Shown piece after piece: positions 43,086 to 60,714 of a stretch of DNA of 64,000 nt. The notes beneath the pieces are model-generated. The model was not told the origin of the DNA. It made no database searches and was given only the letters and a program-made list of their open reading frames with translations. A program made the translations under genes and the position numbers. Numbering within the stretch: position 1 is the first letter of the stretch; each line of letters opens with the position of its first letter. The stretch comes from an uncultured bacterium. Lineage in GTDB: Bacteria > UBP6 > UBA1177. The stretch is from NCBI GenBank assembly GCA_905233945.1, contig CAJOFY010000017.1, positions 1 to 64,000 of the forward strand. The letters run 5' to 3'.

Positions 43086-43433
43086 GGGGATGACTTGGTT
43101 TCGACAGGGAGGCTGGATTTTCCGGCTGCATGCCGAGGCGCCGCTGGCCTCGTAAAAAGCGGCAAAACAAGAAACGCAAATAATAATTTTGCATTGGCAG
43201 CTTAAGCCTGCCCGTCCTACTGCGGCTTGTCCGCGGCTTCAGATAGGACGCCAAACAGCGGAATAGCGACCTAAGCCTTTTTCGCAGGGCAAAGGAAGCG
43301 AAATCAATTGCGAAAAAGTGCGAGAGATCCTGCTGCTGGGAGCTTGAACACTAATTAAAACAGACAGCTACGCACGTAGACGCCCGACTTTCCCCCTTTT
43401 TGGACGCGGGTTCGATTCCCGCCATCTCCACCA
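43086..43433 (+). ncRNA. ssrA: Transfer-messenger RNA (tmRNA)
   Basis: 348 bases. The acceptor stem GGGGATG pairs with CATCTCC next to the 3' ACCA, with one G-U pair. The T-arm reads GGGTTCGATTCCC. The tag begins at the resume codon GCA at 43176 and ends at TAA 43203-43205, encoding ANNNFALAA. The tmRNA with SmpB rescues stalled ribosomes and labels nascent chains for proteolysis. The standard one-piece layout; pseudoknot regions follow the tag. It lies 4 bases from the convergent end of plsB. Confidence 0.95.
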
Positions 43434-57536: not shown

Positions 57537-57932
57537 ATGTTCGAGGCTTTTGCAGTCGTTCAGGTTGTTATCTGCGTGCTGCTTGTCATCATCATCCTTC
57601 TTCAGGAAGGTAAAAAAGGAATGGGAGCTATTTTCGGTGGTTCGAGTAGTTCTGTTTTCGGTGCAAGAGGTGCCGGAAATATCCTCACCAAAATCACTTC
57701 CGTTCTTGCAATCCTCTTCATGCTCAACTCAGTTTGGATGTCCTACATTTCAAGCAGTGACAAGTCTGTCGTAAAAGTTGAGCAGGCTGAAAAGACGGCT
57801 CCTGCTCCGGTTGCGGCACAGCCCGCGGAAGAAAAGAAACCGGAAGCGGTTGAGCAGAAAAACGATCAGCAAGAAGCTCCTGTCGAAGAACAGAAACCTG
57901 CTGAAGAGCAGAAAGAAGCTCCAGCTGAATAA
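57537..57932 (+). CDS. secG: Preprotein translocase subunit SecG
   Basis: 131 residues. Two transmembrane helices (about residues 4-24 and 52-72) flank the conserved SecG loop with GKKGMGAIFGGSSSSVFGARG. The C-terminal tail is Ala/Pro/Glu/Lys/Gln-rich, low complexity. It promotes SecYE-dependent export. The ATG at 57537 has GAGG six bases upstream. tRNA-Leu follows 63 bases after the stop. Confidence 0.95.
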   Translation: MFEAFAVVQVVICVLLVIIILLQEGKKGMGAIFGGSSSSVFGARGAGNILTKITSVLAILFMLNSVWMSYISSSDKSVVKVEQAEKTAPAPVAAQPAEEKKPEAVEQKNDQQEAPVEEQKPAEEQKEAPAE

Positions 57933-57946
57933 CACAGCTGGCAGCT

Positions 57947-57985
57947 TCGGCAGAAGCCGATTTGTTCCTTTTTATTTGAGTTTTT
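57947..57985 (+). terminator. Possible intrinsic terminator after secG
   Basis: Stem TCGGC/GCCGA with loop AGAA, followed by a T-rich stretch. The stem is only five base pairs, and readthrough into the tRNA gene is possible. Confidence 0.4.
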
Positions 57986-57995
57986 TCCCTCCGGT

Positions 57996-58083
57996 GCAGG
58001 AGTGGTGGAATTGGTAGACACGTAAGACTAAGGATCTTATGCCTATTGTTGGTGTGGGGGTTCGAGTCCCCCCTTCTGCACCA
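57996..58083 (+). tRNA. tRNA-Leu(AAG)
   Basis: 88-nt class II tRNA with encoded CCA. The acceptor stem GCAGGAG pairs with CTTCTGC (one G-U), the T-arm is GGGGG-TTCGAGT-CCCCC. The anticodon stem TAAGA/TCTTA is perfect and the loop CTAAGGA puts the anticodon at AAG. Leucine is assigned by the anticodon and the long variable region. Bacterial Leu tRNAs usually carry GAG, so an A at position 34 (which would need conversion to inosine) is unusual; see findings. Confidence 0.93.
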
Positions 58084-59484: not shown

Positions 59485-60714
59485 ATGAAGAATTTCAGCC
59501 TTGTTTTCGCAATTTCCACTCTGTTTTTCGCAGTTTCCTGCGATTCAGGAATCAAGTTTGACAACCCGAATGACAAAAACTCTGATGCATATCAGGGTGA
59601 CAGAGATCAGGAGACGTCGGATAATGATACCGGCGATACAATAGAGCCCGACACAGACACTTCGAGCAGCGATATAACTGATAACGATATCGATAATACC
59701 GACACGACAGATACTCAGGATGACGATTCAGACACTAGCAAACCTGACACAGACAATCCTGATACGACTCCTGACGACGGCGATCCCGAGCAAGAAGAGA
59801 CCACCACTGATGACGCCAACACATCTGCACCAAATAACGGTGATGATGATACAGAAACAGATGACAATACAGACACCTCGGATTCGACTCCGGATAACGA
59901 TTCGGACACGGATCAAGGCAGAAAACAAGGTGAACTTTACGGAGAATGTTACCCGAACGACACATGCAATGCAGGTCTGATCTGCGATGTTGAAAACAAT
60001 ATCTGTATAAAAGACACCGACAACACCTCAGATGATTCTGATTATGATACTCCTGATGTGGATGCGGACACCAGCACCGAAATGCCCGATCAAGATCATG
60101 ATCCAATACCTGAAAACTCCTGCAATTCAAACTCCGACTGCTCCGGTGCTACTCCATACTGTTCTATCACAACGTCAGAATGTATTGCAAACGCAGTTTT
60201 TATAACGGAATACGTCGAAGGAAGCAGCGAAAACAAGGCGATCGAGATCTACAACGGTTCAAAATCATCAGTAAATTTAAGCAATTTCACTATTCAACAG
60301 GCAAAAAACGGCAGTAGTTTCGGTTCTGATGCAAATTACATTTACAATTTTCCTGCATCTTCCCTGCTCGCACCCGGAGCAACTTATGTTGTCTGCAATG
60401 ATTCTGCCGAGGACTCTCTTTTGTCACACTGCGACGACAAACCGTCAACAGGCTTGACTTTAAAGTTCAACGGAGACGACGGCATGGCTTTATTTGAAGG
60501 TACTTTAAAAGTTGATCAGATAGGGATTCAGGGAGATACTGCACCTTGGAGCGTAGCCGGTGTTTCAAATGCAACCGCAAACCACACTCTGAGAAGAAAA
60601 ACAACAGTCATTCAAGGAACAATCGACTGGGACGCTTCTGCAGGAACAACTAATGAAAACTCAGAATGGATCGTGCTTGATAATGATACATTTGATGGTT
60701 TAGGAATAAGATAA
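59485..60714 (+). CDS. Lamin-tail-domain lipoprotein with long acidic stalk
   Basis: 409 residues. Lipobox AVSC (Cys 19). Residues about 25-210 are a Asp/Thr/Ser/Asn-rich low-complexity stalk, broken by small Cys pairs (CYPNDTCNAGLICDVENNIC and CNSNSDCSGATPYC). The C-terminal about 180 residues match a lamin-tail (LTD) beta-sandwich: FITEYVEGSSENKAIEIYNG, LAPGATYVVCND, TLRRKTTVIQG. LTD proteins are extracellular adhesion- or DNA/cell-wall-binding modules in bacteria. GGAGG precedes the ATG; longer starts upstream overlap the previous gene and would remove the lipobox. Confidence 0.9.
   Translation: MKNFSLVFAISTLFFAVSCDSGIKFDNPNDKNSDAYQGDRDQETSDNDTGDTIEPDTDTSSSDITDNDIDNTDTTDTQDDDSDTSKPDTDNPDTTPDDGDPEQEETTTDDANTSAPNNGDDDTETDDNTDTSDSTPDNDSDTDQGRKQGELYGECYPNDTCNAGLICDVENNICIKDTDNTSDDSDYDTPDVDADTSTEMPDQDHDPIPENSCNSNSDCSGATPYCSITTSECIANAVFITEYVEGSSENKAIEIYNGSKSSVNLSNFTIQQAKNGSSFGSDANYIYNFPASSLLAPGATYVVCNDSAEDSLLSHCDDKPSTGLTLKFNGDDGMALFEGTLKVDQIGIQGDTAPWSVAGVSNATANHTLRRKTTVIQGTIDWDASAGTTNENSEWIVLDNDTFDGLGIR

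Follow-up and report, generated by a model that had tools for sequence, protein, structure and literature searches.

The locus of interest lies in a window, by which we mean the whole stretch of DNA analysed (64 000 nt), in which ARAGORN recognized a single tRNA gene besides tmRNA. This gene, a tRNA-Leu with anticodon AAG, was returned at exactly the coordinates of the original prediction (Table 1), and Rfam RF00005 agreed, matching positions 57996–58080 with a score nearly twice the gathering score of 29 (E = 3.5e-9). Its acceptor stem, GCAGGAG/CTTCTGC, contains one G-U pair and the discriminator base is A73; the variable arm is long, and the anticodon stem TAAGA/TCTTA is perfect over 5 bp, enclosing the loop CTAAGGA. 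The five paired positions of this stem were kept in all 92 of the distinct AAG tRNAs that we collected. Minimum-free-energy folding of the single sequence was uninformative and did not favour the cloverleaf (z = −0.70), as is common among tRNAs; it is the covariance model, together with conservation, that supports the tRNA call. The mature tRNA was identical across the 13 genomes of the genus in which it was found (the window's own included), whilst the DNA around it showed mostly 71–88 % identity to the window in nine named records of those genomes, and an identical tRNA amid diverged flanks indicates strong constraint. These observations confirmed that the tRNA-Leu gene is intact and carries A34. 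Further records of the genus derive from rumen and gut samples.

Table 1. Positions within the window of the tRNA-Leu(AAG) gene, its anticodon elements and the features directly upstream
Feature	Positions	Strand	Evidence
secG (preprotein translocase subunit), immediately 5′ of the tRNA gene	57537–57932	+	Pfam PF03840, 73.1 bits (cut-off 29.2)
Weak hairpin resembling a terminator, in the secG–tRNA interval; not taken as evidence of function	57947–57960	+	Consensus scan
tRNA-Leu, anticodon AAG, encoded CCA	57996–58083	+	ARAGORN; Rfam RF00005, 55.3 bits
Anticodon arm TAAGA-CTAAGGA-TCTTA	58023–58039	+	Read from sequence
Anticodon AAG (A34 A35 G36)	58030–58032	+	ARAGORN, anticodon at tRNA position 35

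The window belongs to an assembly (G000) of 2.65 Mb in 56 contigs, 99.7 % complete, in which 42 RF00005 matches were typed one by one. The leucine tRNAs of this genome carry the anticodons AAG, CAG, TAG, CAA and TAA, and no tRNA-Leu(GAG) was found among the 42 tRNAs of the 99.7 %-complete assembly. Only two have A at position 34, tRNA-Leu(AAG) and tRNA-Arg(ACG), and the loop of the latter (CTACGGA) differs from that of the former at position 35 alone. When a single tRNA-Leu(RAG) pattern was run over 290 genomes, comprising 28 of the phylum and 262 of other families, 212 were matched: 37 had AAG only, 175 had GAG only and none of the 290 had both. The absence of GAG, which the original prediction had named as a check, thus held in G000 and, as mutual exclusion of the two anticodons, throughout the survey.

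Within the order (the UBP6 lineage), AAG was present in 21 of the 25 genomes searched and GAG in none; in the four order genomes without a match (G001, G010, G018 and G024), which are fragmented or incomplete, TAG and/or CAG were the only NAG isoacceptors. AAG is a fixed trait of the UBP6 order. It was found as well in the outgroup family of the phylum (G025–G027), and no GAG member turned up among the 28 phylum genomes in the survey. Outside the phylum, 13 genomes with AAG were spread over 10 families. One family, f15, includes both an AAG genome (G186) and a GAG genome (G038), a split that suggests a recent switch; in G186 (L268) the common GAG arm, CCATC-TTGAGGG-GGTGG, has base 34 alone altered. 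A stricter pattern, requiring the D-arm typical of the window's tRNA plus T39, was run over 84 980 species and found 111 stretches. Among the 80 of these that were listed, most were Cloacimonadota, Hydrogenedentota, UBP6 or unnamed rumen bacteria, and some were Clostridia (including Pumilibacter intestinalis), Myxococcales/Deltaproteobacteria, Deferribacterales and Mycoplasmopsis primatum, these taxa being read from record titles, in which single MAG labels may be wrong. Bacterial tRNA-Leu(AAG) has been reported almost entirely from the class Bacilli, with Mycoplasma and Prochlorococcus mentioned briefly, and whether it extends further is a question raised by that same study (PMC13249217). Its fixation in UBP6 and its presence in records labelled Cloacimonadota, Hydrogenedentota, Myxococcales, Deferribacterales and Clostridia would mean that leucine decoding by inosine arose or spread across a broader range of bacteria than had been supposed. 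The interpretation first proposed is supported in that AAG is present without GAG, but the trait is no quirk of one genome, being fixed in the lineage and common to several other phyla.

The position of the gene bears on where it came from. In E. coli K-12 the tRNA-Leu(GAG) gene leuU, the product of which reads CUU/CUC, likewise lies directly after secG; the two differ in having G34 there and A34 here. The window's gene is the positional equivalent of the tRNA-Leu(GAG) of this secG–leuU arrangement, and, lying after secG, the AAG gene occupies the site of the GAG gene. Using a SecG profile, we found secG on the upstream side in 76 of the 118 AAG loci that have A38, in 4 of the 8 that have G38 and in 10 of 31 GAG loci, E. 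coli among them, several of the loci being cut short. The position after secG places the wobble switch at the site of the GAG gene. A different history, affecting the origin only, is that the gene began as a duplicate of tRNA-Leu(UAG) in which U34 became A, the GAG gene being displaced later, as opposed to the GAG gene changing in place. We consider this rather unlikely: the loop CTAAGGA and the A31-U39 pair do match tRNA-Leu(UAG), with loop CTTAGGA, save at base 34, but E. coli and nine other GAG loci also have their tRNA-Leu(GAG) gene behind secG, and the D-arm pair T11-A24 is of the GAG type. Moreover, with the anticodon arm excluded, the closest GAG sequence (82 %) is nearer than the closest UAG sequence (73 %), although the medians are 69 and 72 %, respectively; the tRNA body alone does not distinguish descent from GAG from descent from UAG.

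The loops of the collected tRNAs fell into distinct kinds. All 30 of the GAG tRNAs carried T32 and either G38 or T38, in contrast to C32 and A38 in the window's tRNA, and A38 was found in 84 of the 92 distinct AAG tRNAs but in 0 of the 30 GAG tRNAs, counts that are not independent as the sequences are related. Class I of the AAG loops, CTAAGGA (C32, A38), occurs in the UBP6 order, Cloacimonadota, Hydrogenedentota and others. Class II, TTAAGGG, occurs in G025–G027 and in families f17, f168, f15 and f135, and is the usual GAG loop TTGAGGG with base 34 alone changed; family f106 has the loop TTAAGGA. In Streptococcus pyogenes, TadA edits tRNA and mRNA within the motif YUAMGRA and tRNA-Leu(AAG) is fully edited in vivo; in vitro this tRNA is edited by S. 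pyogenes TadA and not by E. coli TadA, the core motif of which (UACG) is narrower (PMC11472039). The TadA of Streptococcus pneumoniae also edits tRNA-Leu(AAG) (PMC13249217). The class I loop, to which the window's tRNA belongs, fits YUAMGRA, whereas class II misses it at position 38; the tRNA-Arg(ACG) loops were CTACGRA in genomes checked from both classes. C32 and A38 are also the loop context of tRNA-Leu(UAG), and hence need not have been selected for TadA.

Together with TadA, tRNA-Arg(ACG) forms the canonical inosine system of bacteria. The TadA of G000, which is 165 aa long and encoded at C25:29329, scored 176.9 bits against NF008113, the NCBI TadA model (cut-off 150), carries the HAE and PCxxC motifs and is ∼48–51 % identical to TadA of E. 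coli, S. aureus, B. subtilis and S. pyogenes. Its gene lies within a tRNA cluster, Ser(TGA)-Ser(GCT)-Arg(ACG)-tadA-Ser(CGA)-Ser(GGA) (L060, 1205–2197, G000 contig C25), directly after the gene of its substrate tRNA-Arg(ACG), and this arrangement recurs in other genera of its own family and in family f2, hence in two families of the order. In G017, a member of the window's own family (L332, 1700–4726), secG, tRNA-Leu(AAG), tRNA-Arg(ACG) and tadA all lie within 3 kb, with secG–tRNA-Leu(AAG) 1.6 kb upstream of tadA on the same stretch, making tadA and both of its presumed substrates neighbours. Our comparison of TadA sequences found no residue by which AAG and GAG lineages can be told apart cleanly. 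The Val at E. coli position 114 is a post hoc candidate and was rejected as a clean marker of AAG: it was present in 5 of 6 class I lineages and in 4 of 30 GAG TadAs, and the column had been picked after inspection. As a separate observation, the TadA of G025, G026 and G027 (L250, L256 and L252, respectively) has a conserved loop near the active site, GARDPK..SLY, that is shorter by about ten residues in 3 of 3 genomes; the full segment is kept in the TadA of most other lineages, and the tRNA-Arg(ACG) loop of these three genomes is normal despite the shortened enzyme.

The heavy use of CTT that had been noted in the neighbouring genes extends to the window as a whole: its 51 ORFs contain 1722 leucine codons, with CTT at 44 %, CTC at 26 %, CTG at 19 % and CTA at 1 %, CTT and CTC together making up 70 %. 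The ribosomal protein cluster contains 148 CTT and 70 CTC (24 %) among 297 leucine codons, and CTT exceeds CTC in these genes whereas TTC, ATC and AAC exceed their T forms. For G000 the CTT:CTC ratio is 63:37, where the other NNY pairs average 40:60, a U excess of +0.23. In a stretch from G020, of the same order, CTC reaches 35 % and is the commonest leucine codon. CTC stands at 26–35 % in the class I genomes G000, G020 and G166 and at ≤ 16 % in eight class II genomes sampled, although base composition differs between them. AAG and GAG genomes overlap in leucine codon usage, which follows base composition, and codon usage as a proof of editing was dropped as too dependent on it.

As an explanation for these findings we favour, with a probability of roughly 0.83, that tRNA-Leu(AAG) is a replacement for tRNA-Leu(GAG) the A34 of which is converted to I34 by TadA, and that it reads CUU and CUC. 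The edited state, TadA as the editor and the decoding range are inferred from the loop motif, from the free use of CTC in a genome with no GAG tRNA and from the published behaviour of streptococcal TadA. The gene would provide the lineage's only dedicated tRNA for CUU and CUC. TadA, the usual target of which is tRNA-Arg(ACG), would also deaminate A34 of tRNA-Leu(AAG) after transcription; the resulting tRNA-Leu(IAG) would read CUU and CUC well, and CUA in addition, leaving the remaining leucine codons to the UAG, CAG, UAA and CAA tRNAs. The original prediction had offered either a TadA of wider specificity or an unmodified A34. Between the two, a loop that fits the S. pyogenes motif and the 24 % share of CTC in the ribosomal protein cluster favour editing, and a canonical TadA is present, but no residue clearly marks the enzyme, the wider specificity being suggested by the substrate and not seen in TadA itself.

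An unmodified A34 reads CTC poorly. Were the base nevertheless left unedited, the tRNA would read mainly CUU, and CUC would be read slowly by the same tRNA or by tRNA-Leu(UAG) via U34 superwobble or oxyacetyl/methoxy-uridine. This is improbable in our view, and less likely than editing. Consistent with it, Oenococcus oeni has four A34 tRNAs and edits only two of them (PMC11066159), CTT exceeds CTC in G000 beyond the U-over-C preference of other codon families (the +0.23 above), and the rarity of CTA makes extra reading of CUA unneeded. CTC, however, accounts for 24–26 % of leucine codons, ribosomal genes included, and is the commonest of them in the G020 stretch, whilst an orthogonal A34 tRNA for leucine, for which no editing was detected, preferred CUU over CUC by 87:13 in E. 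coli (PMC11066159). The match of CTAAGGA to a known TadA motif likewise argues for editing. In addition CmoB, the only cmo5U enzyme searched for, was not found over its cut-off (21.5 versus 275 bits), which argues against cmo5U34 allowing the UAG tRNA to cover CUC. A GAG gene missed by the assembly, with the AAG gene as a redundant or degenerating copy, is very improbable. The assembly is in 56 contigs and its 42 tRNAs lack tRNA-Ile(GAT) and tRNA-Ala(TGC), the genes of which are presumably in gaps together with the rRNA operons, but GAG was found in none of the 25 order genomes, 21 of which carry AAG, and tRNA-Leu(AAG) is identical in 13 genomes of the genus.

The class II loop, judged by its departure from the motif, may belong to tRNAs that are unedited, and may represent a step before inosine expansion. 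We tentatively consider, with more doubt than confidence, that two states exist: class I, with a TadA loop, would be edited, and class II would be a GAG tRNA with a G34 to A change in its loop that is read unedited or is edited by an altered TadA. If this were true, the UBP6 phylum would retain an intermediate of inosine expansion alongside its final step, and TadA would be recruited through changes at positions 32 and 38. With two loop classes, short RNA hairpins offer a direct test of what turns an A34 tRNA into a substrate of TadA.

The tRNA described here joins a known kind, tRNA-Leu(IAG), and the device is one already known from streptococci. Like the tRNA-Leu(IAG) of Streptococcus and the Lactobacillales (PMC11472039, PMC13249217), it is encoded as AAG in a genome in which GAG is absent and TadA is present, has a loop that fits YUAMGRA and serves codons, CTT and CTC, that are strongly used. 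It differs in belonging to another phylum and in that editing was demonstrated there and is predicted from genes here. Furthermore, the A34 tRNAs of S. pyogenes differ from each other at positions 35 and 37, whereas both of those found here have G37 and differ only at position 35; the location of the UBP6 gene after secG and the clustering of UBP6 tadA with tRNA-Arg(ACG) are additional differences. The tRNA-Leu(AAG) of O. oeni is similarly a second A34 tRNA in bacteria on which TadA is believed to act, according to Rafels-Ybern et al. (2019) as cited in PMC8266599, but that species has four A34 tRNAs (PMC11066159) as compared with two in G000. Lastly, tRNA-Arg(ACG) shares A34 and, in G000, a loop one base removed from CTAAGGA, but is specific for arginine and has C35, where the window's tRNA is specific for leucine and has A35.

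Two further features of the window were recorded. The tmRNA (43086–43433, + strand) encodes the tag peptide ANNNFALAA, and downstream of the tRNA-Leu(AAG) gene, at 59485–60714 (+ strand), lies a gene for a protein resembling a lipoprotein, in which a long low-complexity stretch rich in Asp, Thr and Ser precedes a lamin tail domain (PF00932).
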